From contig JAJQCD010000006.1 of assembly GCA_021202925.1 (NCBI GenBank), forward strand, positions 1 to 58,430: a DNA stretch of 58,430 bases. Direction: 5' to 3'. Within the stretch, counting starts at the first letter, position 1; each line of letters opens with the position of its first letter. Below the pieces are notes generated by a model that saw only the letters and a list, made by a program, of their open reading frames with translations, had not been told where the DNA came from and did no database searches. Source of the DNA: Clostridiales bacterium (GTDB lineage: Bacteria > Bacillota > Clostridia > Lachnospirales > Lachnospiraceae). Made by a program: the position numbers and the translations under genes. This document shows, piece by piece, positions 21,309 through 37,237 of this stretch.

Positions 21309-22084
21309 TCATTGCACATTCATAGCCAACGATGCATTTTTGTAGGCCTCTTCTTCTGTCACCTCCCGTATTACCTTCAGCTGTTTGGGAAAATGGATTT
21401 CCGCATTCTCATCGCCAAGCTCCAGTTCCACAATCGCCCTGTCCTGCCAGAACGGATACACATCAATCTCAAAATACTGACTCTGCCAGGTCAGACAATA
21501 GCGCGTCTTTCGGATCTGGTGTCGACTGGTATCCGCGTCCATCAGTGCGGTAAGGTACTCGTCCCTGGAAAGACGACGCTCTACCTCAACCCGTTTCAGT
21601 CCGGAAATTCTGCGCTTCGTGGTTCTGTAATATACATAATTCCCATCCATACCGCGCTGCCGCACCCGCACCTCACTGCCATCCTCCGATTTCAGATAGG
21701 TCTGAATGATCTCAATACGGCGACAGGTCGGCTGGTTTTCCAGCCACGCGATATCCGGATATTCGATCAGATACTTACGCTCAATTTCCAACGGTTCCGG
21801 CTCCCCCAAAAAGGAAGAAATCTCAGCCAGAAGTCGCTTCATTTTATCTTCAAAATCCGTCGCGTTATCAATGACCCGCAAGTGCGGATGGCCTGTCCAG
21901 GCCGCAATCAGTTTATCGTCCATGTCCACGGGGCGACGCCCCCACCGATCAGCTCCGTAGCTGTTTCCGGCACAAAAAGCACCGCATAGCCTTTTTCGGT
22001 AAACTCATTTTGCAGCCAGCTCATCGCTGTGGTCTTCCCCGCGCAGGGGCCTCCGGTAATGACAATTTTCGTGATTTCCTGCAT
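21309..22084 (-). pseudogene. AAA-ATPase/CYTH-domain gene broken by internal deletion
   Basis: Two pieces of one protein lie in different frames. The 5' piece (from ATG 22084 behind GGGAG) gives MQEITKIVITGGPCAGKTT, a P-loop start typical of AAA_28 proteins, up to GGGVAPWT, then runs into a stop at 21908. The 3' piece begins DDKLIAAWTGHPHLRVIDN and continues through LEIERKYLIEYPDI, a CYTH/VTC triphosphate-binding domain, to 21309. Intact relatives join these with well over 100 residues carrying the rest of the ATPase fold; those are missing here. The junction lies near 21925. The CYTH part could still be made from an internal ATG but the ATPase cannot work. Confidence 0.75.
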
Positions 22085-22165
22085 CTTTTTACTCCCTCTC
22101 CAGATATTATTTTCGATAGCACACCTCAAAACATCTGTTATATCTTGTCATGTATTCCTACACTC

Positions 22166-22735
22166 CTAGCGATTTAAAAGATAAGCCCCCCAATCTTCAC
22201 GGATTTCCCCTGTTAAACGATTAAAAATCAAAGTATTTTCATATATATTAGCTGCCACATCTCTCCCTTCCTTCAGACGTCTTTCTGCCTCTTCTTCTGA
22301 CATCTGCCACCTGACAATAAAATAATATTCATCCCCTATTCTGGTTGTCTCGTCATAGAAAATAATATAATTCCCATTGTTGGCAGGATGGTTCGTATTA
22401 TAATATTCAAAAGCCAATGCCTCCGCTGTTTTTTCATCATAACAAATCGACGTTTGTATCTCTCCGTCGATTACCCATGCGCCATCCTCGTTGACTGTAT
22501 AACCATCCGGTGTAACCGTATCTGTAAGCAAATAACCATCATCACCAAAATAATAACATTCAGAAATCCCATCATTATCGTCGTCAATCCACGCCCAACC
22601 ATCGTGCAGGTAAGAGCCGCCGTCCCGATACCACCAGCCAAAAACATTTTTCTCCCAGTTCGCCGCAAATACGGTCAATGCCATTGCCATTGTCATGATT
22701 CCTGTTATCACAAATAATATCATTTTCTTCTTCAT
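22166..22735 (-). CDS. Secreted cell-wall-binding-repeat protein
   Basis: A 189-residue secreted protein. A signal peptide (MKKKMILFVITGIMTMAMA, cleavage near VFAAN) is followed by cell-wall-binding repeats recognisable by FGWWYRDGGSYLHDGWAWI and CYYFGDDGYLLTDT. The C-terminal 100 residues have no domain I recognise. The upstream in-frame ATG is ignored because AGGAG precedes ATG 22735. It is the last gene of the minus-strand group that begins behind the element at 26439. It probably sits on choline- or teichoic-type wall polymers, by analogy. Confidence 0.75.
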   Translation of the reverse strand: MKKKMILFVITGIMTMAMALTVFAANWEKNVFGWWYRDGGSYLHDGWAWIDDDNDGISECYYFGDDGYLLTDTVTPDGYTVNEDGAWVIDGEIQTSICYDEKTAEALAFEYYNTNHPANNGNYIIFYDETTRIGDEYYFIVRWQMSEEEAERRLKEGRDVAANIYENTLIFNRLTGEIREDWGAYLLNR

Positions 22736-22783
22736 GAATTTTCTCCTGTTCTTCATATAAGCCTGCGGCAGATATTTTCAGGA

Positions 22784-23776
22784 TTACGATTGGAAATATT
22801 CGTTATATTCAATAACGATTCCTCCAGAATCCAAAGTAACAAATCCCTGACCGCCACCAATATCGCCAATAAATTCCTTGTTTATTAATTGTTCTACAGA
22901 TAACACTGTCAAGTCATCTATTCCTCTGTCAGGATCTCTTGTGTAATCAAGCGAAGAAACCACGCAATCCTCAGACATATAAATTATTCCAGTATAGACA
23001 ATTTTTTCTTCTATAAAATCACTGTCTGAAACCTGATAATATCCTTCATCACATTCCCACAAACCATATCTAGATCCCCATCCATCCTCCGGCTCAAAAT
23101 TATACGATTTCAGCCCTTCTGGGTCGGTATAGATCCTCTTTAGCACATAAATACCCCCATACTTGGGAACCGTGTCCCCTATCTTTAACTGTTCTACCTT
23201 TTCTTTTGGCAGAATACTATGAACATACATTTCTACATTGGTAATCTCATAATAGCCGTTCCGTTTCGTAGCCTGTGATGTCACACGATGACTGCTATCT
23301 CCATCACTGTGAAATCTCATCATAACATTGCTGTATCCATCGGTACACTCCTTATTCGGAGCCGACTGCATCTCCTGCATCCATTTACCATCACTTCCCA
23401 GATAACAATCCTCAACCCATTCGTCATGCGCCATGACGCCGTCTTCATCGAAATAATACCATTTCTCCTCTATTTCCTGCCAGCCGGTAGCCTGGTTTCC
23501 ATCCGAATCATAATAATACCATTGTTCGTCCTTGCAGCTCCACTGGTTCCTGGTCCCCGTATCCTCTGCTTCCGAAACAGACTCCGTCTCTGCCGTTTCC
23601 TCATCCTTATGATCCGCTTCATCTGGTACTACAAAAGCCGTCTCGTAGTTCTCTTCCTTTTCTATCGCATTTCTTATGACATTCTCTATGCCATCCTCCA
23701 CGCGCCGTTGCACCCCGCATCCGCATAAAACACAGGCAGCCATACACACGACGCTTATATTCACAATCCCCTTCAT
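22784..23776 (-). CDS. Predicted lipoprotein with cell-wall-binding repeats
   Basis: A 330-residue exported protein. The N-terminus MKGIVNISVVCMAACVLCGC carries a lipobox-like end (VLCGC), so it is probably a lipoprotein. After an acidic linker (EADHKDEETAETESVSEAED) come two WYYY/WYYF cell-wall-binding-type repeats, then about 200 residues of unrecognised sequence. The start at 23776 has AAGGAG nine bases upstream. It follows the pseudokinase gene by 43 bases and precedes another wall-binding protein, so all three are likely one transcript. Confidence 0.7.
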   Translation of the reverse strand: MKGIVNISVVCMAACVLCGCGVQRRVEDGIENVIRNAIEKEENYETAFVVPDEADHKDEETAETESVSEAEDTGTRNQWSCKDEQWYYYDSDGNQATGWQEIEEKWYYFDEDGVMAHDEWVEDCYLGSDGKWMQEMQSAPNKECTDGYSNVMMRFHSDGDSSHRVTSQATKRNGYYEITNVEMYVHSILPKEKVEQLKIGDTVPKYGGIYVLKRIYTDPEGLKSYNFEPEDGWGSRYGLWECDEGYYQVSDSDFIEEKIVYTGIIYMSEDCVVSSLDYTRDPDRGIDDLTVLSVEQLINKEFIGDIGGGQGFVTLDSGGIVIEYNEYFQS

Positions 23777-23819
23777 CTTCCGATTCTCCTTCATTCCCCA
23801 TCCGGCGTCTGCCATACAG

Positions 23820-25352
23820 TCAGTTCACAAACAAATCCTCTCGATTTGCAAAATATACCGCATTCACAGCCAGCAATACCGCCCCGGTAATTACGCTCGC
23901 TAACACGGAGCTGTTTAACAGAGTAAGCATGGAAACCCGCATCACCCACGCCGCCAGCATCAGATAAACAATCGGCAGAAACGCGTTTACGGCTCCTATC
24001 GTCAGATACATCGCAGGCGCACCTTTGCAAAACCCTGCCAGCTTCTGTCTCACCACAATACAGGCAACAGCTTCCACAAACATAACAGATCCCACAAGCC
24101 GGTCAAGCGTTTTCATCCCGCTAAACAGGCTGTAAACCAGCGCTGTGCTGCCTCCATAATGCAGTCCCTTCATATACACTATTGCTGAAACCATTCCCAT
24201 AACAGCAGCGACAAACAATTGAAACCAGATAATGAATTTGAACCACTTCATTCCACGCTCCGAATTCTCCGTTTCGCCATTTGCCCGAAATTCTCCCGTT
24301 GCTACCGGATGCTCCGCAACCTCCTCTGCTGTCAATTCCCGGATAAATTCCTCCATTGTCCGGGTGCGTTCCTCTGCCTTAGGACGTAAGGCATTCATCA
24401 GTGCTGTTTCCACCGGCTGGCTGATTTTAATTCCCCGTTCCGACGGCTTTTTTAAATGATCCTCTCTTATTCTTTCCCGGGAATCCTCCGGCGCTACGCC
24501 GGTTATAAGCTTATAACACACTGCCGCCAACGCATAGACATCCGTCCAGGAACCCCTCTCACTTTTCCCAAGACATCTCTCTGGCGCAACATAACTCAAT
24601 GGCAGAATTATGTCCATCTCATCAAGATATTCCCTGTCTATCTGGAAGCAATAATCTCCAAAATCATATAATTCTACCGCCGGATGATCTGCTCCATCCG
24701 GATTCAGGATGCGAATGTGATCCATATCAAGATTAACCGATTGAATACCGGCCTGATAAAGTTTGACGACGGCAGAAGCAACCTGGATTGTAATATCAAG
24801 CGCCACGTTCTCAGGAATCGAGCCGTGCATCCTGCAATATTTCCCCAGGGACATACCATCCTTGTATTCTGTCAGAACATATGCCGTCCCATTTTCCCGA
24901 AAGAAATCGCATACCTGAATAATGCCCTTCACTCCCTGAAGCTGCCCGGCCTGTTTTGCCTGATCCAAAACAGACTGCAATCCTTTTTCAAACGATTCCG
25001 CCTTTTCGGGTTTTACTGATAATTTCTTCCCCTGAGTCCGTTCAGCCGCATCAACCGGACCCTCATCCGGAAAGTATTCCTCTACGCAAAGTCTTTTTCC
25101 AGAAACACAATCAAGCCCCATATAAACAATCTTTGGCACGCGGTCAAGCAATCCCATGCCATCTCTGTAACCCCTCGTGCCCTGACCGACTATGTATCTG
25201 CCCCGCAGCATCGTCCCCGGCGAAAGAATGCTTTCATCCGCACGCGGCGTATTGACCCAATATCCGCAATAAGGACATACCTCATATTGCCGGTCATATT
25301 CTCTCATGCAACCCATATATAACCGGATTTCTTTATCTGCCATACCCGCCAT
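23820..25352 (-). CDS. Predicted membrane-bound pseudokinase with zinc ribbon
   Basis: A 510-residue protein. Order of parts: N-terminal zinc ribbon (CPYCGYW, C26/C29 with C15), a protein-kinase-like domain (about 45-335), a linker, and four hydrophobic segments between about 375 and 505. The kinase part keeps DFG (230-232) and the APE-like VAPERCLG, but the glycine loop is degraded (GQGTRGYRDGMG), the ATP-binding Lys is Glu91 (VEEYFPD versus the usual VKEYFP), and the catalytic HRD...N is SVNLDMDH, so the catalytic Asp is Asn207 and the Asn is His212. It is therefore probably not an active kinase. It lies between the ADP-ribosylglycohydrolase and lipoprotein genes. Confidence 0.75.
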   Translation of the reverse strand: MAGMADKEIRLYMGCMREYDRQYEVCPYCGYWVNTPRADESILSPGTMLRGRYIVGQGTRGYRDGMGLLDRVPKIVYMGLDCVSGKRLCVEEYFPDEGPVDAAERTQGKKLSVKPEKAESFEKGLQSVLDQAKQAGQLQGVKGIIQVCDFFRENGTAYVLTEYKDGMSLGKYCRMHGSIPENVALDITIQVASAVVKLYQAGIQSVNLDMDHIRILNPDGADHPAVELYDFGDYCFQIDREYLDEMDIILPLSYVAPERCLGKSERGSWTDVYALAAVCYKLITGVAPEDSRERIREDHLKKPSERGIKISQPVETALMNALRPKAEERTRTMEEFIRELTAEEVAEHPVATGEFRANGETENSERGMKWFKFIIWFQLFVAAVMGMVSAIVYMKGLHYGGSTALVYSLFSGMKTLDRLVGSVMFVEAVACIVVRQKLAGFCKGAPAMYLTIGAVNAFLPIVYLMLAAWVMRVSMLTLLNSSVLASVITGAVLLAVNAVYFANREDLFVN

Positions 25353-25400
25353 TTTCCCCTTTTCAAATCTTACGTGTTCCCGCATGACCAGCCCGGCGAC

Positions 25401-26117
25401 TTATGACATCCTGGGATAACGACGCCCCCGCACATATTTGGATTCCCACGCCAGATCAGAATAGCCGCCGGATTCACTCGTCTGGCAGCCCTGATACAGA
25501 TCGTCTGCCATTTCCAGAATAACATCAGACAGCTCCAGATGATTCTTCCATTTTTCTTCGATCGTCTCATAGCCAACCAGCGTTCCCAGGATATTTCCAG
25601 TCACCGCTCCCGTCGAATCGCTGTCGCCCTTGTGATTAACCGGATTTTTCATAAAATCGTCCACGTACTCCCCACAACCACGCTGCGCCAGCGAAGAAAG
25701 ACAGGTATTTCCCGGCGCTCTCAGCGCATACAGCTCCGGGACATCCAGCAGCCAGGAAATTTCTCCTTCTCTGGTATGCCGCTTATATGGATTCACGCCG
25801 TGAATATCCGATCGCTGTGTCTTAAGCCAGTCCTGATAGGCCATGGCGACATATGTCCTTGGCTTGTCCCCGTTTCCATTCATGCTCATCCTGGTATCGC
25901 CCACAAGGATCCCGGCGGCGGTAAACAGCGTCATCTGCGTGTCGTCCGAAATCTGCGCCTTGCCATCGACAAGAGCATATTCCGTGATGCCATTCGAACC
26001 ATAGGTATGAAAAATCTGATCCTCCTGCCAAAACTCTATCGCATAGCCAAGAGCGTCACCGACCGCCCCGCCGATCAGACTCCCACGAATCGCATCCAAT
26101 TTTCCTCTCTTCTTCAT
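25401..26117 (-). CDS. ADP-ribosylglycohydrolase family protein
   Basis: A 238-residue protein of the ARH/DraG family, whose members remove ADP-ribose from proteins or related molecules using two magnesium ions. It shows IRGSLIGGAVGDALGYAIEF, the metal site SDDTQMTLF and the second metal site KGDSDSTGAVTGNILG near the C-terminus. Start ATG 26117 follows a purine-rich stretch (AAGGGGAAGGGG). No export signal, so cytoplasmic. It overlaps the end of the small membrane-protein frame only if the upstream start is used. In this neighbourhood it could act on products of the TIR domain encoded at 27.5-30.6 kb; that is inference. Confidence 0.85.
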   Translation of the reverse strand: MKKRGKLDAIRGSLIGGAVGDALGYAIEFWQEDQIFHTYGSNGITEYALVDGKAQISDDTQMTLFTAAGILVGDTRMSMNGNGDKPRTYVAMAYQDWLKTQRSDIHGVNPYKRHTREGEISWLLDVPELYALRAPGNTCLSSLAQRGCGEYVDDFMKNPVNHKGDSDSTGAVTGNILGTLVGYETIEEKWKNHLELSDVILEMADDLYQGCQTSESGGYSDLAWESKYVRGRRYPRMS

Positions 26118-26172
26118 TCGGATCCCCTTCCCCTTTTCACGTCGTTTATTCTTTTTTCTCGTCCGGCTCGCC

Positions 26173-26394
26173 TCACCGTACCACGATATCAAGTACGGCC
26201 TCCGTAAGCCATGTCTCCAGCCGCTCCCGGCCAGCGCCCGCCATTTTCACGATCTCCGGCAGCTCCACTTCATATGTAATGCTTCTGTTTTCCTTTTCCG
26301 GCATCCGCCTCGTCTCAGCAGGTCTGTTGCTCAGCATACATAACAGGCACAGCGTACATATACAGGTACATACAATCCACATCTTATCCTTCAT
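26173..26394 (-). CDS. Small protein with N-terminal membrane anchor or signal, 73 aa
   Basis: Unrecognised. A Cys-rich hydrophobic N-terminus (MWIVCTCICTLCLLCML) is followed by a charged segment and a predicted helix (VKMAGAGRERLETWLTEAVL). GAGGAGG precedes the ATG, and the 44-nt element at 26439-26482 lies 45 bases upstream, which supports it being a real first gene of the operon reading into the ADP-ribosylglycohydrolase. Confidence 0.6.
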   Translation of the reverse strand: MKDKMWIVCTCICTLCLLCMLSNRPAETRRMPEKENRSITYEVELPEIVKMAGAGRERLETWLTEAVLDIVVR

Positions 26395-26438
26395 CTCTTT
26401 TTCCTCCTCATTTCTTCCTGAAAGATCTGTTTTCTTAA

Positions 26439-26482
26439 CTCTGAGGACATCATATCACATATTTCAGAATCAAAGTTTTAAG
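26439..26482 (-). promoter_or_regulatory. Shared 44-nt promoter-like element, copy C
   Basis: On the minus strand it begins CTTAAAACTTTGATTC and ends with ATGTGATATGATG...TCAGAG. The same 44-base pattern is found at 33169-33212 and 37068-37111, each time 36 to 54 bases before a minus-strand start codon. Conserved blocks are CTTAAAACT.TGA.TC at the upstream end and ATGTG.TA near the position of a -10 box. It should drive the genes 26394 to 22166. Confidence 0.65.
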
Positions 26483-26524
26483 GAACATGCACGAGATGTC
26501 AGGATGCGGATTCCTGTTTATTGA

Positions 26525-26552
26525 TAAATCGGATTGATATTATAAATAAACC
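26525..26552. repeat. 28-nt direct repeat, left copy
   Basis: Matches 27472-27499 with one mismatch in 28 bases (core AATCGGATTGAT), with weaker similarity continuing about 15 bases further. The right copy is the 3' end of the kinase-TIR gene (encoding FIYKINPI). The left copy would encode FIYNINPIYQ on the minus strand. The repeats bracket the AbiE module. Confidence 0.75.
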
Positions 26553-26814
26553 TCTCCCCTTCCCCGCTTCACATCATATTCTTTTGTCATGCCGTACAAA
26601 TTTCGAACAGCTGACATCACATTTGACCATTTGATATCTGACGCATATGAAAATTTCCTTTGATAGGATTCCCATAACTTCTGCATGACAGGAGCGAAAT
26701 TCTTTCAAGGAATCTCTCCATCATGTAATTTCTCAGCAAAATCTGAGCATCCGCAGATTTCTTCTTTGATAAATTGCGAATCAGGTCTTTTAATTGCTTT
26801 GAGGTTTTAATCAT
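26540..26814 (-). pseudogene. AbiEii toxin remnant, internally deleted
   Basis: The 5' end gives MIKTSKQLKDLIRNLSKKKS and NYMMERFLERISL, the expected N-terminus of an AbiEii/AbiGii nucleotidyltransferase toxin. The frame then leaves the family and stops at 26617. In another frame the sequence MQKLWESYQRKFSYASDIKW resumes and runs to 26540, which looks like the family's C-terminus. The middle ~200 residues with the GG-T and DxD catalytic motifs are gone, so no toxin activity is expected. It overlaps the antitoxin gene by four bases, as intact abiE pairs do. Confidence 0.75.
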
Positions 26815-27404
26815 AAAAGCACCTCCAGATACTGTCGTAAAATTTTTTCAACCCGAAACATACGGGCATAATTCATTAAATTCCTCAAATTTTTGTCCTT
26901 ACGACGAACATACCTCTTTATTGCATCCTGATATGTCTGCATTTCGATACGATTTCGACTACGAATCAGATCACAAATGGTACGCTCCATATCATAGACA
27001 GGAACCTGATGACCAAATGACGTTTTCAAAAATATAATTCCAATACCATACAGTTCCTTTTTCACCGTATATACCACAACATCCTCTTTTTTCAGGCCAC
27101 TGGTGTTATAACCTCTCTTCACCGTGACTGAGAACGAAAATGGCTCCCGATCCGTCAAATCATGAAAAAGTAAAGCTGTCTCGTGAGAATAAACAATCTG
27201 GCCGCACCGTAGATGAAGCAAATACAGCGCATCCATCCAGCTGTCATTTGATACATAAATTCCATGCGCTGCTTGTCTTAAATCTCTAGATTTAACATAA
27301 TCATAAAAAACAGACTTTGAAATCCTCATATCGACAATTTCTGAAGTCCGGAGAATTCCATCATTTCTTTCAAGGGCATTATCCAATAACTCCTGCTGTG
27401 TCAT
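26811..27404 (-). CDS. AbiEi-family antitoxin (type IV toxin-antitoxin), locus 1
   Basis: A 197-residue protein. The N-terminal ~75 residues form a winged-helix (ELLDNALERNDGILRTSEIV, SKSVFYDYVKSRDLRQAAHGIY), and the rest has the AbiEi C-terminal pattern SHETALLFHDLTDREP and VYDMERTICDLIR. AbiEi proteins repress their own operon and neutralise AbiEii. The internal ATG 27404 is used because AAAGGATGG precedes it. An 8-bp inverted repeat around the -10 box at 27420-27449 fits autoregulation. The partner toxin is a remnant, so this may be an orphan repressor. Confidence 0.8.
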   Translation of the reverse strand: MTQQELLDNALERNDGILRTSEIVDMRISKSVFYDYVKSRDLRQAAHGIYVSNDSWMDALYLLHLRCGQIVYSHETALLFHDLTDREPFSFSVTVKRGYNTSGLKKEDVVVYTVKKELYGIGIIFLKTSFGHQVPVYDMERTICDLIRSRNRIEMQTYQDAIKRYVRRKDKNLRNLMNYARMFRVEKILRQYLEVLL

Positions 27405-27419
27405 ACGAATCCATCCTTT

Positions 27420-27449
27420 CATGCTACTATTATAAATAAATGTAGCATG
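27420..27449 (-). promoter_or_regulatory. Inverted-repeat operator and -10 box of the abiEi gene
   Basis: CATGCTAC at 27420-27427 and GTAGCATG at 27442-27449 are perfect 8-base arms around TATTATAAATAAAT. On the minus strand the spacer carries TATAAT, with TTACTT 16 bases upstream as a possible -35. AbiEi proteins are known to bind inverted repeats at their promoters. Confidence 0.65.
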
Positions 27450-27470
27450 AAAGTAAAGTAATGAACGATT

Positions 27471-30400
27471 TTAAATCGGATTGATCTTATAAATAAACCA
27501 GTTCTCCCCCTGCCGCGCATACAAATATCCATCTCCGGACTCGATTTTCGAATATGAATAATGCAGCAGCTTTTTCCCTGTGTAAAGATCATATACGCCC
27601 CACTTTCCACTGGTATCAGACATCACCGCGATCAGTCCGGTTCCAAGAGGAACCGTCCGCTCTCCCTGTAATTGCAACGAAAAGGTCTTGTCCTTCAGCA
27701 CCAGCGCCGTTAAACCATCTGTCACACAGGCATCGGTTGGTTTATTATCCAGATTTTCCGCCACAATGCCGTCCGGTCCTACCAGCATGTAGGACTCACC
27801 GCTTTTCGCGTAATAATATCCCATTCCAAGTGAAGTAAAACTGTTATCTGTAGACGCAAGGACATTTCCCTCCAGATCAATCAGCGCGTAAGCGCCATCT
27901 TCTGTCCGAATGCTGACAACTCCATATTCTTCACTGCTGATAGATCGATAGGCAATGGGCAACACCCGATTTCCATTCCTGTCTACAAGTCCGTATTTCT
28001 CATCTTTATATATTTCGATCAATCCGCTCGTACTCTCCATTAACGAAAGCGAAGAAGCAGAGCTAAATAAAAATGTCCCTTCGTCATCATACACCTCATA
28101 AGCATTCTCATCCTGCGTGATAAGGTATCCGTTTCCTACGTCCAGTGTCTTTTTCGCTTTCATTCGCACATTTCCGTCTGCATCATAGAGATTTGTCGTT
28201 CCATCCGCGTCGACAATCGTAAACCCGGATCCGCACGCCTTTCCCTCATGATTTGTGATTTCGTCGACGCCGACGAATTGTTTATTCTCAACGTCATAAA
28301 TTCTGGCATAGCCCGTATACATCGTTGAAGTGGTCGGAATGCCAAACACTGCATTTGGTTCCTCAATATCATCGCAATCCGGATAGCTTTCAGAACCGAT
28401 TCTGATCACGGGAAGTCTTTTCCCTTTGTAGAAAAAACACTCCGATATATCTGTCGTTGTTCCGGTTTCATATACCACCTTCAGATATCTCTTCGCGTCC
28501 TCCTGGTACATACTGTTTTTAAGCCATTCGATGTAAGCGGTTTCACAGGGAATCCGTTCCTCTCCCTCTCCCTCAATATTGACCAAGCCGACAGAATCCA
28601 GGTCGGGGTTCGATTGATTTACCAGAACATACCCGTTTCCCAATGACTGGATGATCTCATCATAACCGCGGGCGGAAAGGGATCCGCTCTCCGATACCAC
28701 ATGATATCCATCCTCGCGTTTTAACGTCAGAATTCCTTTTTTCACCTGCATGCCGTCCTGATCCGCAATCGTTCCGGTTTCCTCCAGCGTGTATCCCATA
28801 AATGTCGGATGTAGCACTGAGGATGCGGAAACCGATTTGGTTTCTGCTTCAGACTCTGCTTCTTGTATTACCGGTTGCGCAGAGAATACGACGGTTTCTG
28901 TTTCCATCTCCAGCCGGTAATCCGTCGGCCGTCTCTGGCTTAAAATGAGAACGCCCGAAATGACGATGACTGACGCGGACGCCGCCGCGATCTGCCGAAA
29001 CGCCAAAATCCTGTGATGCCGCTTTAAAGCGCTGTACGTTGTGGAAAGCATCGGCGCTGCAATGCGCAGCAGCGCATCTCTTTTTAAACGGGACAATACC
29101 TCCCTGCGATTCTTCCCTCTCGCATCCGCCGCCAGAACCATATCCGTTCCCTTTTGTCCCTGAAGCTGAGGCGGAAAAGACTCAGCCGGTTCGCCGCCGG
29201 TCAGCACAGCGAGAATCCGGGAGCGGTCATGATATTCCAGAAAAGTGTCGATTTCCAGTCTCACCCAGGATGACCTGGGCGTGTCCGGCGAACAAATCAC
29301 AATCAGCCATTCTGAATTCTTTAATACCGTCCGGATCTGTTCTCCAAAATCCGCGCAGCTCGACAGCTCTCCTTCATCCACAAATACATGCCGAAAAGGC
29401 CGGTTCCCTGTCCCCGTACTCATGATCTTCGGCGCGCGAAAATGTTCCAGCCTTTTTCGAAGCACCCTGGCAACCTCGCTGTCAATCGGCCCATGCTTAT
29501 AGCAAACAAACGCATCATACGCAGACAGTTCCAGATTATTCTGGCTCGGCTGCAGTGCGTTCAGGAAAGATCTGACGTCCTCAAGCATCTCATCCACCGA
29601 GTGATACCGTTCGAACGGATCGACTTTAAGTGCGCGAGCGATAATCGTCTGCATTCGTTCCTGTAAATGTGCCGGGCAATCAATCTTTCTTAATTTAAAC
29701 CGCGAGAGATACTTCCCTGTCTGGTTGCTTAACAGAGCATTCGCGCTGTATTTGCTTCCCGTCAGCAAGTACAGGATCAGACAGCCCACAGAGTAAAGAT
29801 CCGCCTCCGGCCCAAGTCGGAGCGAGCCGTCATTGTGCAAAAGAATCTCCGGAGCAGAAAACCCTTCTGTCGTGAATATCACGCGGTCGACAATGCGCTC
29901 TGTTTTCCCGTGTACCATTGCGCGAGCCGAGCCAAAATCAATCATCGTCACAAGGCTGCTCTCATCATCCAGCGCTCCCTTGATAAATACGTTTCCGTCC
30001 TGGATATCAAGGTGCAAAAAACCCGCCTCATGAATCTCACGCAGGGCAAACAGAATCTGCCGAATCACATGAAATGTCTGAAGCGGGGTAAATAATTGAT
30101 ATTCCTCCATATAAGAATGCAGAGAACGCCCTTTGGAGGCCAGTGATTCCATCACGGTAACTGTATTCCTGACCAGGGTCGGCTCCTGCCCTGGCACGGC
30201 GAGAATCAACTGCTCCGCCGATTCAAGCACCGGCAGAATCCGCGAGCCCGTCCGGTAAATCCACTGTGTAATCGCCTGCTCGTCAAGCTGCAGCCTTTTT
30301 ACACATGCCAGATAAAACGCATCCGCCTCGCTCCGGGTTTCCGGCACAATTTCCCCCTGCTCGTCTCGAATGAAACGATGTCCCAGCGACGACGGATAAC

Positions 30401-30584
30401 ACTCCTTCAGCGCATAGATCATTCCGTCACAGTCCAGCCTGTCGCCATACGTCACATATCGCTTTGCCGGATAGATCAGAGAACCGCCGCCGCGTCCGAT
30501 CGGATCGCCGGTGATTTCATACAGACTTCCACTGTCAAACTGCAGCTGCGTTCCTGTTTTCAGATATGTTCTTTTTTCTTCCAT
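27471..30584 (-). CDS. Ser/Thr kinase - TIR - transmembrane - WG-like repeat fusion
   Basis: A 1037-residue multidomain protein. Residues 15-345: protein kinase with GRGGGSLIYPA loop, ATP-binding Lys60 (YALKECYP), catalytic loop HLDIQDGN (D193, N198; the usual HRD Arg is Leu) and DFG (216-218), so probably active. Residues 355-475: a TIR domain starting YDAFVCYKHGPID, with CSPDTPRSSWVRLEIDTF, where Glu444 in WxxxE is the position of the catalytic Glu of NAD-cleaving TIRs. Residues 530-548: one membrane helix. Residues 590-1037: outside the cell, with repeats such as YGLVDRNGNRVLPIAYRSI and YALIDLEGNVLA resembling WG beta-propeller repeats. It lies between a PP2C phosphatase and an AbiE module. 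Function is inferred: a receptor kinase controlling a TIR effector. Confidence 0.82.
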   Translation of the reverse strand: MEEKRTYLKTGTQLQFDSGSLYEITGDPIGRGGGSLIYPAKRYVTYGDRLDCDGMIYALKECYPSSLGHRFIRDEQGEIVPETRSEADAFYLACVKRLQLDEQAITQWIYRTGSRILPVLESAEQLILAVPGQEPTLVRNTVTVMESLASKGRSLHSYMEEYQLFTPLQTFHVIRQILFALREIHEAGFLHLDIQDGNVFIKGALDDESSLVTMIDFGSARAMVHGKTERIVDRVIFTTEGFSAPEILLHNDGSLRLGPEADLYSVGCLILYLLTGSKYSANALLSNQTGKYLSRFKLRKIDCPAHLQERMQTIIARALKVDPFERYHSVDEMLEDVRSFLNALQPSQNNLELSAYDAFVCYKHGPIDSEVARVLRKRLEHFRAPKIMSTGTGNRPFRHVFVDEGELSSCADFGEQIRTVLKNSEWLIVICSPDTPRSSWVRLEIDTFLEYHDRSRILAVLTGGEPAESFPPQLQGQKGTDMVLAADARGKNRREVLSRLKRDALLRIAAPMLSTTYSALKRHHRILAFRQIAAASASVIVISGVLILSQRRPTDYRLEMETETVVFSAQPVIQEAESEAETKSVSASSVLHPTFMGYTLEETGTIADQDGMQVKKGILTLKREDGYHVVSESGSLSARGYDEIIQSLGNGYVLVNQSNPDLDSVGLVNIEGEGEERIPCETAYIEWLKNSMYQEDAKRYLKVVYETGTTTDISECFFYKGKRLPVIRIGSESYPDCDDIEEPNAVFGIPTTSTMYTGYARIYDVENKQFVGVDEITNHEGKACGSGFTIVDADGTTNLYDADGNVRMKAKKTLDVGNGYLITQDENAYEVYDDEGTFLFSSASSLSLMESTSGLIEIYKDEKYGLVDRNGNRVLPIAYRSISSEEYGVVSIRTEDGAYALIDLEGNVLASTDNSFTSLGMGYYYAKSGESYMLVGPDGIVAENLDNKPTDACVTDGLTALVLKDKTFSLQLQGERTVPLGTGLIAVMSDTSGKWGVYDLYTGKKLLHYSYSKIESGDGYLYARQGENWFIYKINPI
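27472..27499. repeat. 28-nt direct repeat, right copy
   Basis: Partner of 26525-26552, 947 bases away. It overlaps the last codons of the kinase-TIR gene, so one boundary of the AbiE module is right at that gene's stop codon. Confidence 0.75.
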
Positions 30585-30646
30585 ACTATTTCATACCCGC
30601 CCCAATTCTTTCGTTGGTACGATTATAGTATATTTATCTGCAAATG

Positions 30647-31396
30647 TTAAGAAGATTCTTCGCGATTTCCGTCAATCATTATGCAACTTGCGTCATCCAC
30701 AGCCACAAATTTCTCCATATATGTGCGGATATCCTCCGGATTTCGGGAGAGCAGGATTTCTCTCGCACGACGCTGGATATTTCTCCCCTTACAGATGCAG
30801 TCCGCTCCATCGGTCATCAGCAAAATCCGCCGGTAATTCTGAAGGTTGCCAAAATAAATCCTCAGGTGCGACAACGCCTGCGGCGAAGTGGTCAACCAGG
30901 TATACTGAGCGGAGACGCCGGTGTCGGGGGCGCTGATGATTTTCATCGTCCCATCCCGCAAAACCCCGATTCCGCAACCGCCTCCCAGATGCGCCAGCAC
31001 ATAATTGCCGGACTTTTTTTCCAGAGCAATCCCGAGCAACGTAGAGGAAAACGCATCCCTTCCCACGCCATATTGCTTTGCCAGCAAATCAATCCGCTCA
31101 CGGATTCTCCGGATGAATCCAAACTGAATTTCATCCGAATACGGATATTGCATCAATGAGGTAATCCCCGCCTTCTCCAGATAATTCGCTGCCACGAGAA
31201 GGCTTTCCCTGGCTCCAGTCAGGCTGTGCGACATGCCGCTCTGACCGTCCGCGACTCCGCAGAAGACAAAATCCGAATGGCTGCTTTCGTACACGTACAC
31301 CGCATCGTCTCCCGGCTCGCCCCGCATGAAATGTCTCTGCCCCACCCGGCTGACCATCGTCACCTCCACTTGCGGCAATTGTTTCGACCGATCCAT
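30647..31396 (-). CDS. PP2C-family Ser/Thr phosphatase
   Basis: A 249-residue soluble phosphatase. PP2C metal-binding motifs can be followed: GDDAVYVYE, FCGVADGQSG, RRILLMTDGADC and the final VDDASCIMID. Some positions differ from common PP2Cs (GQSG instead of GMGG). It starts behind GGGAGAG and lies 62 bases upstream of the kinase-TIR gene, so it is the likely partner that removes phosphates placed by that kinase, as PP2C/kinase pairs do elsewhere. Confidence 0.82.
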   Translation of the reverse strand: MDRSKQLPQVEVTMVSRVGQRHFMRGEPGDDAVYVYESSHSDFVFCGVADGQSGMSHSLTGARESLLVAANYLEKAGITSLMQYPYSDEIQFGFIRRIRERIDLLAKQYGVGRDAFSSTLLGIALEKKSGNYVLAHLGGGCGIGVLRDGTMKIISAPDTGVSAQYTWLTTSPQALSHLRIYFGNLQNYRRILLMTDGADCICKGRNIQRRAREILLSRNPEDIRTYMEKFVAVDDASCIMIDGNREESS

Positions 31397-31411
31397 ATTT
31401 CTCTCCCATCG

Positions 31412-33115
31412 TCAAAAGTCCGAATTCAGATAATCGCTGATATCCAGCGCATTCCCGTCCTCATCCTCCAGATACACGGAAATCTTTTTGTTTTTCGGGA
31501 TTTCACCAATCGTCGTGTTTTCGTCGACTCCGGTTCCCTGCCTGACGTAAATGGCATCTTTGCTCAATCCTTTATAGGTGGTTACATATCCGTTTCCATG
31601 ATCAATCATAACCACACCCGCCGATTTATCCACCTTCGTCACGATTCCTTCTGAATGAGCATAGACATGATTATAACGAATCGCGTCACTCTTCTTCCAC
31701 TTGAACTCCACATACGGATGGGAATTCTTGAATTTGGATGAAATTCGGGAAGACGCATCCGCCAGTATCCTGCCGTTAAAGTCGCGGGAATCGTTGGTCA
31801 CATATCCCGCCCCGTCATCCCTCGTTCCAAAATTGCCGTTGATCACAACCACCGTCGCGCTGCTCTCTGCCTGAACCTCAAATCTCTTCTCAATCACCGT
31901 ATCAATTTTTGACCCGATATGTGCGGATACATAATAGCGATATTTCCCTTCTTCCAGAGCAGAAAAGTCAAAGCCGCCCGCCAGTTCGGCCAGATCATAC
32001 GTATACGTATACGGCGTCACCTTTTCATATCCATAAGACGCACCTGTCTTTGTCGACTTCAATTCAACGATAATCTGTGTAATCGGATAGTTTGCCTGAA
32101 TCACGCCGTTCAACTGATAATTAGTTCCCTCGGTTACCATATCCGGAATTTCTTCATGATTCTCCAGGGAATATTCCAGCCGCTCCAGATATGCCATCTT
32201 AAAATAATCCTCAAACAGCTCCTTGGTCGTTCCGGACGCATCCGTCGCCTTTACCGTAAAGCAATATCCCGCTCCCGCCCACGTCAGACGGCTGGTGTCA
32301 AAATAGCTCAGATCCAAATCTTCCAGATTCACCGTTTTCCCACTGGTCGGATATTCCTTTGTATAATGCTTCTCTCCCAGATATGTAACTTTCAGGTCAA
32401 TTTCCACCGAGATGATCTCATAATTTGAGGTAATCGTCCCGGTTAATGGAATGGAACTCCCCACTTCATAGCTGCCGGAAATCGTCTCATGATTGGAGAT
32501 CGAAAGCTGCGAGCTTTCTGCGCGAACGCTTCCCGATCCATTTTCCTGCATTGAAGCATTTTCCGTCTTCTTCGCTGTCTCAGGCACAGAAGAAACCGCC
32601 GCGTTACCGACTGACGAGCTGTTTTTCTCTTTATTGCTACCGGTCGTCTCGCTCGTCTCATTTTTTGAAGCGTGGCTTCCGGATATGGTTGTAGCGGAAT
32701 TGCTGCTGACCACGGATGCTTTCTCTGCACCGGCATCCCATTTCCCGTTTTCATCCACCCAGTCATCTCCAACCCACTGACTCCTTGCCACGGCTCCATC
32801 GTCACGGAAGTAATACCAGCTTCCATTGATCTGGTTCCAGCCTGTGACCATGGCTCCACTCTCCGTACAATAATAAGTATTATCAATCCAACCGGTTCTC
32901 ATATATCCGTTTTCGTCAAAACAGTACCATGCATCTCCGGTGTGCTTCCAGGCATTCGCCGGATAGCTTCCATCCTCATTGTCATACCACCATCCCACCG
33001 AATCCTGTCTCCATCCGGCAAACGCGCTTCCTGTCCCGCCCAGCAAAAGAATGGCAGATACTCCCGCAATCATCCCGGCCTTTTTCCATTTCATTCTCAG
33101 AATACTTCTCTTCAT
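31412..33115 (-). CDS. Secreted wall-binding protein with degenerate M23-like end
   Basis: A 567-residue exported protein. Signal peptide (KKAGMIAGVSAILLLGGTGSAFAG), then cell-wall-binding repeats (GWWYDNEDGSYPANAWKHTG, AWYCFDENGYMRTGWI, SWYYFRDDG), a Ser/Thr/Asn-rich linker (about 135-215), two beta-rich domains, and a C-terminal region like an M23/LytM fold (VMIDHGNGYVTTYKGLS). The M23 zinc ligands HxxxD and HxH are not seen (KKISVYLED in place of HLHFEI), so it is probably a binding module. ATG 33115 has AGGAGGG seven bases upstream, and element copy A lies 54 bases before. It is the first gene of the unit with the PP2C and kinase-TIR genes. Confidence 0.78.
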   Translation of the reverse strand: MKRSILRMKWKKAGMIAGVSAILLLGGTGSAFAGWRQDSVGWWYDNEDGSYPANAWKHTGDAWYCFDENGYMRTGWIDNTYYCTESGAMVTGWNQINGSWYYFRDDGAVARSQWVGDDWVDENGKWDAGAEKASVVSSNSATTISGSHASKNETSETTGSNKEKNSSSVGNAAVSSVPETAKKTENASMQENGSGSVRAESSQLSISNHETISGSYEVGSSIPLTGTITSNYEIISVEIDLKVTYLGEKHYTKEYPTSGKTVNLEDLDLSYFDTSRLTWAGAGYCFTVKATDASGTTKELFEDYFKMAYLERLEYSLENHEEIPDMVTEGTNYQLNGVIQANYPITQIIVELKSTKTGASYGYEKVTPYTYTYDLAELAGGFDFSALEEGKYRYYVSAHIGSKIDTVIEKRFEVQAESSATVVVINGNFGTRDDGAGYVTNDSRDFNGRILADASSRISSKFKNSHPYVEFKWKKSDAIRYNHVYAHSEGIVTKVDKSAGVVMIDHGNGYVTTYKGLSKDAIYVRQGTGVDENTTIGEIPKNKKISVYLEDEDGNALDISDYLNSDF

Positions 33116-33143
33116 GACCAATCCCTCCTTGATTTCTGCGTTA

Positions 33144-33194
33144 AAAAATGTGGCAGAGTGTTTTTCATCTCTGAATACACTCTACCACATTTTT
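33144..33194. repeat. 17-bp inverted repeat overlapping element copy A
   Basis: Arms 33144-33160 and 33178-33194 match at 16 of 17 positions (AAAAATGTGG-AGAGTG) with a 17-base gap. The right arm is the -10-like half of the shared 44-nt element, so the same block faces itself. Copies B and C do not have the second arm. Confidence 0.75.
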
Positions 33195-33212
33195 CCGAGT
33201 CAAAGTTTTAAG
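33169..33212 (-). promoter_or_regulatory. Shared 44-nt promoter-like element, copy A
   Basis: Minus strand begins CTTAAAACTTTGACTC and contains ATGTGGTAGAGTG; see copies at 26439-26482 and 37068-37111. It precedes the wall-binding, PP2C and kinase-TIR genes. Confidence 0.65.
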
Positions 33213-33357
33213 GGAAAACGCAGGTTAAAAAACAGGTATTATTCCAAATCAGCTGCCGCACGGACGTGACGATAGACCATACAGAAATCAGAGACTTATC
33301 CCATAATTTTAAAAAACGCTCGAAGCCTGAGTTTATTGCTTGGTTTCGAATATTTCA
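33213..33357. other. Short gap between divergent units
   Basis: AT-rich sequence between element copy A (reading left) and the promoter of the second AbiE locus (reading right). No gene or clear structure is seen. Confidence 0.5.
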
Positions 33358-33419
33358 GGAAATTCAAATTTCCAAATTGTTGCAAAACTATTGTAATTAC
33401 TCCTGCTTTGAGTTAATAT
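33358..33419 (+). promoter_or_regulatory. Promoter and palindrome of the second AbiE locus
   Basis: TTGTAA (33391-33396), a 17-base spacer and TAATAT (33414-33419) form a usable promoter 20-odd bases before the abiEi start. Just upstream, GGAAATT-CA-AATTTCC (33358-33373) is a near-perfect palindrome that could be the AbiEi operator. Confidence 0.6.
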
Positions 33420-33441
33420 AAAAACAGATGGAGGGATTTCC

Positions 33442-34206
33442 ATGGATATTTATAAAGAATTAGTCGCCTTGCGCTGTTTCACCCATAGTGACATGGTTAA
33501 GATTGCAGGTTCGGAAAGCGCTGCACAGTGGCAGATAAAGAACTATCTTGACAAGGGATATATTGAAAGAGTGCGGCGCAGCTTGTATGCTGTTATCAGT
33601 ATGGAAACGGAGCAGCCAATACCGAGTCGATTTCAAATTGCATCCCGCATAGCGGATGATGCCTGCATATCTCACCATAGTGCGTTTGAATTTTACGGTT
33701 ATACCAATCAGGTATTTTATGATGTATATTTCACGACGAAAAAGAAAGTGCGTCCCTTTGACTACGATGGATTACACTATCAGCCTGTAATATGGCGGGG
33801 CGGCACAAACATTGTGGAAATGAATAACGGGGTGCGAGTAACGTCACTTGAACGGACTGTAATAGACAGCATAGCCGATTTCACAAGAATAGGAGGATTA
33901 GAAGAATTGCTTCGCTGCCTTATCCTGATACCCTCCCTTGATGAAAAAAGGTTACTCGAAGCACTAAAGATGCATGGCTTAGGACAGCTTTACCAGAAAG
34001 TGGGATATATCCTTGAAGCATATAAGAATGAACTGACATTATCGGATGCATTCTTTCATGAATGCATAACAAAGTCATCCGCAAGCAAAACTTATCTGTT
34101 CGATAAGCAGAAGGATTTTGTGTTTCATAAAAAGTGGTTATTGTATGCGCCTGCGGATCTGAAGAAACTTATTGATAAGGGAGTAGGTGATTATGACTGC
34201 ATTTGA
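33442..34206 (+). CDS. AbiEi-family antitoxin (type IV toxin-antitoxin), locus 2
   Basis: A 254-residue protein of the longer AbiEi-like type. The N-terminal winged helix (FTHSDMVKIAGSESAAQWQI, KNYLDKGYIERVRRSLYAV) is followed by ISHHSAFEFYGYTNQVFYDV and the conserved RVTSLERTVIDSI. GGAGGG lies before the ATG. It is unrelated in detail to locus 1 (different length and sequence), so the two loci were acquired separately or diverged long ago. It overlaps the toxin gene by 14 bases. Confidence 0.85.
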   Translation: MDIYKELVALRCFTHSDMVKIAGSESAAQWQIKNYLDKGYIERVRRSLYAVISMETEQPIPSRFQIASRIADDACISHHSAFEFYGYTNQVFYDVYFTTKKKVRPFDYDGLHYQPVIWRGGTNIVEMNNGVRVTSLERTVIDSIADFTRIGGLEELLRCLILIPSLDEKRLLEALKMHGLGQLYQKVGYILEAYKNELTLSDAFFHECITKSSASKTYLFDKQKDFVFHKKWLLYAPADLKKLIDKGVGDYDCI

Positions 34207-34624
34207 CCGTATATCACTTGGAAGACAGGCAAAGGAACTGGGATTTGTTAGAGATACTTTTGAAAAGGTGTGCAGGCTTGTCGATGTTCTGTCGTTCTTG
34301 GAAAGCGATACCTTGCTGTCAGACAGCCTTGCATTAAAGGGAGGTACGGCGATAAACCTGACAGTATTTTATTTACCGCGCCTGTCAGTGGACATAGACA
34401 TGGATTATTCCCGAAACGTACCGAGAGAAGTTATGCTGCGGGAACGGCTTCAGATAAACAGCCGTATTCAAAAATACATGGCTGCTTTAGGGTATAATCT
34501 TAGCCTAAAATCAAAACAGTATCACGCACTGGATTCTTTTGTGTATGAGTATGCTAATGCAGGCGGTATGAAAGATAATCTGAAGATAGAAAACGAAAAC
34601 GTATTTAGTTCCTCATACTGTTAA
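34193..34624 (+). pseudogene. AbiEii-family nucleotidyltransferase toxin, truncated
   Basis: A 143-residue product where intact relatives have roughly 250-300. The catalytic N-terminal half is present: LALKGGTAINL (GG at 50-51) and SVDIDMDYS (D67, D69), expected for nucleotide binding and metal. The family match ends at GGMKDNLKIE; then NENVFSSSYC and a stop follow, so the C-terminal half is gone. Whether the short form has activity is unknown; loss of the C-terminal helical domain makes it unlikely. The next gene begins about 100 bases later. Confidence 0.75.
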
Positions 34625-34729
34625 CCCAACGGGATTCGCAGTTTACACCCGATCTGTTTTATGGCATAATTTTCATAATGACATTATGATACCGTGAAAA
34701 ATAACCATCACACAGGAGGCTTACGCTTT

Positions 34730-36292
34730 ATGTTTGAGAATTATACAAGTGCAATGAACAACCGCTGTTTTGATTTCATTGATGACGGCCTCGCCGCAAT
34801 GTGGGACCAGATTGAAAACATGCCGGAATCCAGCACACCCCAAGGCTGGAGGCAGGTACTGGCCGATATATCGGCAGAATATACCCACTCCAGCCGCTTC
34901 GCCCTGATGCGGATTCTGTGCTGCCGGGCAACCGGCCTGTCTCTGAACAGCACACAGCTTCCGTCTGAATTTACGCTTCCGATATCCGGTCAGATTCATT
35001 CCTTCCACAATATCTCCATGCGTCACGCAGAAGTCCTGACACAAGAAGAGTTGGAGCAGTACCGGGATGCTTTTCTGGAAATCGCTTCCCTTCAGGAAGA
35101 CGCAGATCCTGACGTCAGTCAGCTTCTAATTGCCAGAGCCCTGCGGGACACCGATACGGCGTTTGCATTATCCATGGAACAGCTGAGTGAAGATCAGAAA
35201 AAGGACAGAAAACTCCTGAAACGGGAGAGCAGAACCCTCCTCTCCCGGGATGAGGCGCTCAGGCTTGGTCACATTCTCGACTTCTCTCTCAATGAAATGC
35301 AATGGTTCCTGCTGCGCGTTTTCGACTATGAAGACGGATTTCGCTACCATATCTCCGACGACCTGATCGAGGCCTATGGATTCCTGACCAAAGCCAGCTG
35401 GCAGTCCGTCTCCAGGCTTAAACTGAGCTATCATGAATTGTCCGCGCATATCCTTAAGCAAAGCCGCGACGACTATGCCACAGCCACCCGGAATATCGGC
35501 GCTTCGCTTCCCGGTCTTGCCATGTCCTGGGCCAGCCGCCCCGACGACCGCGACACTCTTTTTATGAACTGGATGATCAATCAGGCGCCTTATCTGGATC
35601 TGCCATCGAGGACCACCCTGCGGATTTACCGAAGTCTGGCCGTCTATACCTGTCAATTTCTGACCGAGGATCAGAAGATGCCGGACCCGGATCACTTCAT
35701 CCGCCTGATCAAACAGGAAATCTGCTGCCACAGCGAGGAAAGCGAACAGAAAATCCGTGAGTTCCTTTACGACGGGGATTCTGTCTCAAATCAGAAATGC
35801 AGCCAGGTCAGCTCCGCTCTGCTTGAAAAAAACAAAGCTTTGTTTACATCCGCACACGACGCGTCGAAAGCATGGCGCACGATCTCCGCGACAGACGACG
35901 GACGCCCCCGACTGATCATGGCGGGCCGCCCGGACGCCGGAAGGAATCGCGTAAAAAATCTTCTCATCGGCAAGGAAGATATCGAAAAAGGCGATATGCT
36001 TCATTTGCTCTGGTTTGCCTTCAATCTCTGCTGGCTCAAATACCCTCTGGCCACCGATGATCCCTCTGGCCTTTTTAACTGTCTCGCTGATTTTACAGAG
36101 ACCTGTGAGTTTGTCCTGGATCAGGCTCTCCTCCCGGCTTTTTATCCCCCGCACCTCATGGAACAGAGCATGATGCTCTCTATCGTGGCTTCCGTCGATG
36201 AATCCTGCGACACCGGCGTACCGGCGGATGCCTACGCGGAGATCTGCGAACTTCTGATCGTTCCGCGGAAAGGTCGGGGAAAAACTTCTTAA
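34730..36292 (+). CDS. Hypothetical protein, 520 aa
   Basis: I do not recognise this family. The protein is soluble and mostly helical, with no signal peptide or membrane segment. Notable stretches: LSRDEALRLGHILDFSLNEM followed by QWFLLRVFDYEDGF, which looks like a small helical regulatory or HTH-like motif near 190-225, and several Cys residues near 395-445. AGGAGG lies ten bases before ATG 34730; a GTG 12 codons earlier is less likely. It directly follows the truncated AbiEii gene and converges on the zinc-ribbon gene. Confidence 0.7.
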   Translation: MFENYTSAMNNRCFDFIDDGLAAMWDQIENMPESSTPQGWRQVLADISAEYTHSSRFALMRILCCRATGLSLNSTQLPSEFTLPISGQIHSFHNISMRHAEVLTQEELEQYRDAFLEIASLQEDADPDVSQLLIARALRDTDTAFALSMEQLSEDQKKDRKLLKRESRTLLSRDEALRLGHILDFSLNEMQWFLLRVFDYEDGFRYHISDDLIEAYGFLTKASWQSVSRLKLSYHELSAHILKQSRDDYATATRNIGASLPGLAMSWASRPDDRDTLFMNWMINQAPYLDLPSRTTLRIYRSLAVYTCQFLTEDQKMPDPDHFIRLIKQEICCHSEESEQKIREFLYDGDSVSNQKCSQVSSALLEKNKALFTSAHDASKAWRTISATDDGRPRLIMAGRPDAGRNRVKNLLIGKEDIEKGDMLHLLWFAFNLCWLKYPLATDDPSGLFNCLADFTETCEFVLDQALLPAFYPPHLMEQSMMLSIVASVDESCDTGVPADAYAEICELLIVPRKGRGKTS

Positions 36293-36307
36293 GAAAATAT
36301 GCAAAAG

Positions 36308-36351
36308 CAGCGTCATGCAGTATCCCTGTCCAGTCCGCCGCATGACGCTGC
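36308..36351 (-). terminator. Terminator of the zinc-ribbon gene
   Basis: GCAGCGTCATGC (36308-36319) pairs perfectly with GCATGACGCTGC (36340-36351). On the minus strand the hairpin is followed by TTTTGCATATTTTC. It lies between two convergent genes and may work for both, though the plus side lacks a T run. Confidence 0.7.
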
Positions 36352-36414
36352 CGCGCCAAATCCCAAAAAATCATTCCACATATTACATTCCTTCTGTCAG
36401 GATGCCTTACGTTT

Positions 36415-37032
36415 TTACGACCATAAAATTTTCATAAAAAGTGGATATTTATCATCCATAATCTTGCAAAGCCGCACCAACATTTCCACAGCAGCCGCAC
36501 CTGTCGACTCGGCAGAAATCCTGCTGGGAAGATCCGCCTTTACCACGATATTCATATTCTCATCCCGCAGTACAAATGTCGCAAAGCGAACCTCTGCATT
36601 GCATTGATTGATCGCCTCAAGGATCTGCAATCTTTTTTCCGGTTTGATCTTTATATAATTGGCAACCTGTATTTCAACTCCTCCGTCCTCCAGCAGGATG
36701 AGCACAAACTCATAATTGGTCTGTTCCCCTGCAATTCCCAGCTGAAAAACGGTCTTCCCCTCATACTCGATTGACTTATGCTTTTCTATTCCAAATTGTT
36801 CAAAATTTTGCGTGATTGATATCACACGCAACGCATAATCATCACTACTCCCACAAATTGGACATCGACCATGTTTGTTCGCGTCGTAAAAATGTCCATT
36901 GATACATTTTGTTATTTTCGCACCAGAATCCTGCGCTATTTGCACTTCACGACCACTATTTCCGCAGTGCGGACATCTGCTATATTTTTCCGCGTCATAA
37001 AAATGTCCACTGGTACATCTCGTTAATCTCAT
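36415..37032 (-). CDS. Tandem zinc-ribbon protein with YbjN-like C-terminus
   Basis: A 205-residue cytoplasmic protein. Two near-identical zinc ribbons lead it: CTSGHFYDAEKYSRCPHCG (5-24) and CINGHFYDANKHGRCPICG (42-61). This CxxGHFYD...CPxCG module is common at the front of FHA and kinase-linked proteins in Lachnospiraceae. The C-terminal ~130 residues (VANYIKIKPEKRLQILEAIN, IVVKADLPSRISAE) resemble a YbjN/chaperone-like fold. GGGAG precedes the ATG. It is the only gene behind element copy B, so it appears co-regulated with the kinase-TIR unit. Confidence 0.7.
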   Translation of the reverse strand: MRLTRCTSGHFYDAEKYSRCPHCGNSGREVQIAQDSGAKITKCINGHFYDANKHGRCPICGSSDDYALRVISITQNFEQFGIEKHKSIEYEGKTVFQLGIAGEQTNYEFVLILLEDGGVEIQVANYIKIKPEKRLQILEAINQCNAEVRFATFVLRDENMNIVVKADLPSRISAESTGAAAVEMLVRLCKIMDDKYPLFMKILWS

Positions 37033-37067
37033 CTCAGTTTCTCCCTTCCCTGACGATAAATCATTTC

Positions 37068-37111: not shown

Positions 37112-37197
37112 AAGCCATTCCATCTTATTTTTATTTTACTGAACTTAATTCTTTGGCAAATATGCTTTTAGAAAATTTATTTATTTTTTATTGTCAA

Positions 37198-37229: not shown

Positions 37230-37237
37230 TTAAGTAC

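Follow-up and report, generated by a model that had tools for sequence, protein, structure and literature searches.

The 58,430-nucleotide stretch of DNA analyzed here (the window; contig JAJQCD010000006.1 of the Clostridiales bacterium assembly GCA_021202925.1, Lachnospiraceae) carries at 27471-30584, on the minus strand, a single unbroken open reading frame (ORF) for a 1037-residue protein. Pfam, a helix scan, profiles and alignments place in this one protein a protein kinase, a Toll/interleukin-1 receptor (TIR) domain, a membrane helix and a WG-type repeat domain, the architecture that a first-pass annotation, made from the letters and an ORF list, had proposed. Immediately upstream on the same strand, 62 bases away, is a PP2C-type phosphatase gene (30647-31396; Pfam E = 2.3e-20), which that annotation had also named as an associate, preceded at 15 bases by a gene for a secreted protein with choline-binding repeats and an M23 peptidase-like part (31412-33115). 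The three genes likely form an operon, of which the M23/choline-binding gene is the probable first gene. On the plus strand, 34694-36292 encodes a 532-residue protein of no known family, here called the partner, which neighbor comparison and profile searches identify as the most constant neighbor of the kinase-TIR fusion. The partner lies outside the region 25401-33115, to which the earlier description of the neighborhood was confined, and was missed there.

Kinase, TIR and outer domain of the fusion protein

The kinase part, encoded at 29550-30584 (minus strand, as are all parts of the receptor), matches Pkinase over residues 144-333 (E = 5.9e-23). K60, D193 and D216 (the lysine, HxD aspartate and DFG aspartate), previously read as signs of an apparently active kinase, lie at those positions and are intact in 24 of 24 fusion sequences, the window sequence being counted once in this and the following residue counts. 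All 24 have Q where HRDxK kinases have K. The catalytic residues point to an active-type Ser/Thr kinase.

The TIR part (about 29010-29537) is matched by ThsB_TIR (E = 6e-7) and by TIR_2 (E = 3e-6; 28.1 bits against a cut-off of 28). Searches of the PDB with the single sequences of the TIR and outer domains gave no match; of the 38 TIRs collected, 28 (16 linked to a kinase, 12 without one) were built into a profile, the other 10 being omitted, and this profile matched the solved TIRs of Roq1 (1.5e-7), AT1G72930 (2.8e-7), TcpB (1.4e-5), 3h16 (1.8e-4), AbTIR (7.7e-4) and RPP1 (3.9e-3). In this profile W440 and E444 align with W82 and E86 of Roq1, the latter being the catalytic glutamate of that plant TIR; E444 had earlier been assigned to a WxxxE motif. 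E406, W440 and E444 are intact in all 23 sequences that reach the TIR. The fold and the WxxxE glutamate together suggest a TIR of catalytic type, probably an NADase. Bacterial TIRs are mostly treated as intracellular alarm enzymes.

A single hydrophobic helix (residues 531-549; 28938-28994) separates the kinase and TIR from the outer domain (27474-28799), which supports the predicted placement of the former two on one side of the membrane and the repeats on the other; the helix scores above threshold in 22 of the 23 TIR-reaching sequences, the exception being L057. No WG_beta_rep match appears in the receptor's own sequence at E = 1, but a protein encoded next to the fusion at L039 (P0010) contains two copies of the outer domain, at 73-76% identity, and scores WG_beta_rep at E = 2e-8. 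The outer parts of two other scanned fusions (L040 and L059) have propeller-type matches.

Matches spanning kinase and TIR were found in 6 of 299 family genomes, the window's own included (G000, G202, G183, G136, G167 and G025), and the fusion is present in two of 24 genomes of the window's genus (G000 and G600). A contig scan returned 26 loci, of which 23 (L039-L061; five of them, L042, L044, L048, L051 and L061, the same places as L034-L038) are at least 39% identical to the kinase-TIR query; with the window they make 24 loci, a lower bound because the scan was pattern based. The other three (L062-L064) match at 25-28% identity over the kinase part only and were excluded from all counts. The search for the same order elsewhere, suggested with the first-pass annotation, thus recovered it at 22 further loci plus one (L060) that lacks the TIR as its contig ends there. 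Carriers include Blautia luti, Coprococcus catus, an Oribacterium and many Lachnospiraceae metagenome-assembled genomes (MAGs), as well as MAGs labelled Erysipelotrichaceae (L052), Eggerthellaceae (L059) and Atopobiaceae (L060, kinase part only), which may reflect transfer or mis-binning. Carriage by phages or plasmids was considered and rejected: viral contigs gave no match, and none of the 22 phage and 103 plasmid records that matched covered 80% of the kinase-TIR query.

The partner and the wider kinase module

All-against-all comparison of neighbors places relatives of the partner near the fusion, inside the flanks that were fetched, at 22 of the 24 loci. They fall into three groups, fam1 (9 loci), fam2 (8, including the window) and fam4 (5), and profile comparison links fam2 with fam4 (98.5%, E = 3e-15) and fam1 with fam4 (86%, E = 4.9e-6). 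In the window the partner and receptor genes are divergent, 4.1 kb from start to start; at L041 and L042 the partner is likewise divergent and lies close to the fusion. A profile of the window-type partner matched 2 of 150 family genomes, both carrying the fusion. Searches of Pfam, NCBIfam, PHROGs and the PDB sequences with the window partner gave chance-level hits at best.

The partner also accompanies kinases that lack a TIR. Such kinases, picked by kinase similarity, have a partner at L080 and L083-L089; none was found at six others picked in the same way (L090-L095), one of which (L094; G000:C39:78000-94000) is a zinc-ribbon kinase cluster with PP2C-like genes by eye. To avoid the bias of selection by kinase similarity, a partner-profile search was made, which matched 31 of 200 family genomes, and 3 of 299 genomes in the phylum, the window's own included and the other two weakly. 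In 18 of the 20 regions fetched with the partner profile, a kinase recognized by our own kinase profile lies no more than two genes away, the remainder being L130 and L147, the latter beginning at a contig end; the partner hits of 7 of the 31 genomes (G074, G076, G110, G129, G150, G155 and G164) fall outside the fetched regions. As the window's genome has eight kinase matches in 3.17 Mb, this linkage is far above chance. The association of kinase and partner holds in 22/24 fusion loci and 18/20 partner regions.

Fourteen partner-linked TIR-less kinases were scanned, and nine have a STAND-type NTPase match (NACHT, NB-ARC or AAA_16) at E ≤ 1e-3, over the Pfam cut-off in five (L085, L088, L089, L137 and L142); TPR is present in six of the nine. 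The partner-linked kinase of L083 has an Ig-like end, and FHA-like genes adjoin the partners of L139 and L144-L146 by eye. PP2C relatives stand beside the partner in L142 and L149 and, by eye, in L138.

Several of these regions have further features. At L149 (4269-11176) a weak partner (6.4e-6) and a PP2C-like gene accompany a 1507-residue kinase-like protein, recognized by our own profile and with no Pfam Pkinase hit, that has a Card1/NERD nuclease match of 1.5e-4, under the cut-off; it may represent a nuclease-type output of this module. At L148 (4742-11288) a sigma-factor-like gene, identified by eye, lies between the partner and a kinase-AAA-TPR gene. A genome of the window's own genus (G613) has two TIR-less kinases with partners, one NACHT-like by eye (L183) and the other with AAA_16 and TPR (L184).

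Neighboring genes and evolution of the locus

PP2C relatives recur in 6 of the 24 fusion loci by phmmer (window, L039, L043, L044, L045 and L061). The other two neighbors named in the first-pass annotation, an ADP-ribosylglycohydrolase (25401-26117, minus strand) and a zinc-ribbon kinase-like membrane protein (23820-25385, minus strand), occur in the window and L039 only (2 of the 24 loci), both of one genus. Lack of conservation of the neighbors among relatives had been named as a refuting condition with the first-pass annotation, and for these two genes that is what was observed. Counted from its methionine, the glycohydrolase of the window is 238 residues long, whereas the intact L039 copy has 390 (E = 7.8e-62); the middle (about 150 residues) is missing between two DNA segments approximately 95% identical. 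The deletion lies at a short imperfect repeat, and the protein is probably inactive. The kinase-like protein looks like a pseudokinase, as previously described, in that the catalytic lysine and asparagine are not evident by eye; its restriction to two loci led us to reject it as a core part of the module. The order of downstream genes also requires correction, as an AbiEi-type gene (26811-27422, minus strand) lies between the receptor and the glycohydrolase; L039 has a WG-domain protein in its place. AbiEi is matched a second time by an antitoxin-type gene at 33442-34206 (plus strand), between the partner and the receptor operon, which is followed by a short AbiEii-like ORF (34187-34624, by eye). 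Two further genes for choline-binding-repeat proteins lie on the minus strand at 22784-23815 (lipoprotein-like by eye) and 22166-22756 (small and secreted).

The locus lies within a low-GC region of about 15 kb (22000-37300; GC 46.6% versus 54.4% and 51.7% in the flanks), probably an island, with mreB on one side and tRNA-Gly(ccc) (38236-38307) on the other. Five genomes of the genus were compared at mreB: G602 lacks the island, its two flanks lying close together with the same tRNA; in G609 a different large gene occupies the site; and the contigs of the other three are too short to tell. A type II methyltransferase-like gene (38383-40482) lies just past the tRNA. Elsewhere in the window's genome, contig G000:C23 encodes two further TIR proteins (L001 and L002), the former with TIR-like and repeat-like parts by eye.

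TIR-membrane-repeat receptors of the same family but without a kinase were examined at 15 loci. Their TIRs are 33-47% identical to that of the window, they are mostly 850-1250 residues long, and in the two whose whole sequence was read a helix and a propeller-like C terminus are visible by eye; one plasmid relative is annotated as a toll/interleukin-1 receptor domain protein. Unlike the fusion, they have no kinase in front, and the partner profile has no hit in the 15 loci. The 23 fusion TIRs and these 15 separate cleanly in a TIR tree (96/96; 98% of bootstraps). The split is compatible with one fusion event; the Coprococcus sequence sits on a long branch in this tree. A DHH-type phosphoesterase gene lies no more than two genes from the kinase-less receptor in 9 of the 15 loci (examples among L067-L076 are L068:3374-8025 and L072:6606-11202) and was found in none of the kinase-TIR loci; the one phosphoesterase scanned has DHH (2.2e-13) and DHHA1. 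These receptors and phosphoesterases may form a two-gene set of their own, with the phosphoesterase clearing a product of the TIR.

In the kinase tree, a single origin of the kinase-TIR kinases was recovered in 66% of bootstraps. The type of output changes 4 times, compared with 15.1 in shuffles, with the labels of L084, L087, L133, L136 and L183 assigned by resemblance; L080 is a long branch, and a warning of long-branch attraction applies to the tree. Free exchange of outputs was rejected on these numbers; swaps are rare, and outputs are mostly inherited with the kinase lineage. When the window is compared with L039, divergence at synonymous sites is faster in the outer domain (dS of 0.306) than in the kinase (0.118) and TIR (0.107). 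The dN/dS of the outer domain is 0.22, with 0.95 on 11 changes in a short helix-linker stretch, and the low ratio with raised dS fits recombination better than positive selection, which was rejected. Local recombination is likely, since L039 has outer-domain copies next door, including one of 45% identity in addition to the two in P0010.

Possible role in receptor-gated TIR signaling

The explanation that we consider best is a Lachnospiraceae-centered module of a kinase, a constant partner and a lineage-specific output, which here would be a two-protein, receptor-gated form of TIR signaling; we give this a probability of roughly one-half. What is seen directly is the anatomy of the receptor and the association of the genes; the roles of the receptor, partner and PP2C are suggested by their families. 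The receptor would be a single-pass membrane protein with the WG-type domain outside and the kinase and TIR inside, and the partner a dedicated cytoplasmic protein, which would most likely serve as substrate or adaptor, either controlling the kinase or passing its signal on. On sensing a ligand or envelope damage through the outer domain, receptors would cluster and the kinase would phosphorylate itself and the partner; the clustered TIRs, now active, would use up NAD or produce a signal of the ADP-ribose type, the cell would be halted or warned, and PP2C would reset the kinase. Given the further domains to which such kinases are joined, a role in defense is plausible.

Several observations weigh against this explanation. 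The window's partner is separated from the receptor by the AbiE genes and the M23-PP2C genes, and the fam2 and fam1 partner profiles show no direct match. Two fusion loci have no partner: L050, where only 1.9 kb of contig lies upstream, and the closest relative, L039, whose fusion is 93% identical and whose contig ends just upstream. No partner was found at E = 0.01 in the genome of L039 (G600; 97% complete, 250 contigs) with a profile that likewise failed to pick up G167's known fam1 partner and is thus weak for fam1; G600 may truly lack the partner and is a possible counter-example. By eye, a motif in the partner resembles an XRE-type helix-turn-helix, but no Pfam, NCBIfam or PDB hit confirms the partner as an XRE regulator, and that reading was set aside. 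In the window's PP2C one conserved acidic GD-motif residue is replaced, by eye, whereas relatives include intact copies, and this replacement, with the deletion in the glycohydrolase, suggests that the locus may be decaying. Among TIR-less kinases, four of the nine NTPase matches are under the cut-off (L086, L131, L148 and L184), and no clear output domain was seen in 3 of the 14 scanned (L080, L134 and L135). Finally, many fusion loci seem, by eye and uncounted, to be beside housekeeping rather than defense genes.

Among the alternatives, the strongest, though we judge it unlikely, is that the TIR is an assembly surface rather than an NADase, in an envelope or cell wall pathway in which the kinase and partner alter gene expression and serve the nearby M23 and choline-binding proteins. 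The M23/choline-binding gene at the head of the receptor operon fits this, as do M23-like or choline-binding-type genes near two other fusions (L042 and L058, by eye), the many partner-linked kinases without a TIR and the sigma-factor-like gene of L148, but a WxxxE glutamate intact in every TIR is hard to square with a pure scaffold, and the STAND-type matches in most of the scanned TIR-less relatives also argue against it. Less probable still is a chance fusion of a kinase to a TIR receptor, in which the partner and PP2C serve an older job of the kinase and the TIR is bystander cargo. The partner's association with kinases both with and without a TIR and the tracking of output with kinase lineage are consistent with such a history, whereas the fact that many species, including the MAGs labelled as other families (for Atopobiaceae, the kinase part only), retain the fusion with its two active sites intact speaks against it. 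The circuit implied by the first-pass annotation, in which the TIR makes an ADP-ribose product or mark that the glycohydrolase removes, is very improbable and was rejected as the main idea, as the two genes occur together only in the window and L039 and the window's copy is internally deleted.

Known systems resemble the receptor-gated module in part. The ThsB_TIR match recalls Thoeris (ThsB TIR plus ThsA), but the window TIR sits in a membrane receptor with a kinase, and no ThsA-type SIR2 or SLOG domain was found among the 28 window proteins scanned (a subset of the ORFs). PknB/Stk1 PASTA receptor kinases share the kinase, membrane helix, outer domain and PP2C associate, whereas the receptor reaches 71 bits where the NCBIfam cut-off is 450, has no PASTA and has a TIR. 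The defense kinases PD-T4-6, MAD6 and Stk2 are similar in the kinase domain (best PADLOC match, 8e-26), but the matches shown cover the kinase only (residues 92-378 at most), and neither the TIR nor the partner is matched there. MoxR-vWA ternary, GAP1-N2 and related conflict systems use kinases, TIRs and STAND NTPases as alternative modules, and in some actinobacterial GAP1-N2 systems PP2C and vWA genes accompany an active kinase; the passages on these systems stress multicellular bacteria and often inactive kinases and do not describe the window's partner (PMC7159879, PMC8195603). No MoxR or vWA domain was found among the same 28 window proteins. Neither the kinase-TIR fusion nor the partner is described in passages from PMC7159879, PMC8195603, PMC9092222 and PMC7075850, and no bacterial "kinase-TIR" was found in the open-access literature, which does not establish its absence from print overall.

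Somewhat more tentatively, an undescribed Lachnospiraceae family of immune-receptor-like modules may be envisaged, in which a constant partner accompanies an active kinase that is joined, by lineage, to outputs of the TIR-membrane-sensor, NACHT, NB-ARC/AAA-TPR, Ig or perhaps nuclease type. The shared switch that arms TIR or STAND effectors would then be phosphorylation acting through the partner, which PP2C resets and FHA proteins sometimes read. As it belongs to no Pfam, NCBIfam or PHROGs family and lacks a PDB sequence match, the partner is a concrete new target. If the proposal is true, phosphorylation control, cell surface sensing and NLR/TIR-type output would be joined in one bacterial family, which would provide a bacterial parallel, within single proteins, to the plant receptor kinases that feed TIR/NLR immunity.

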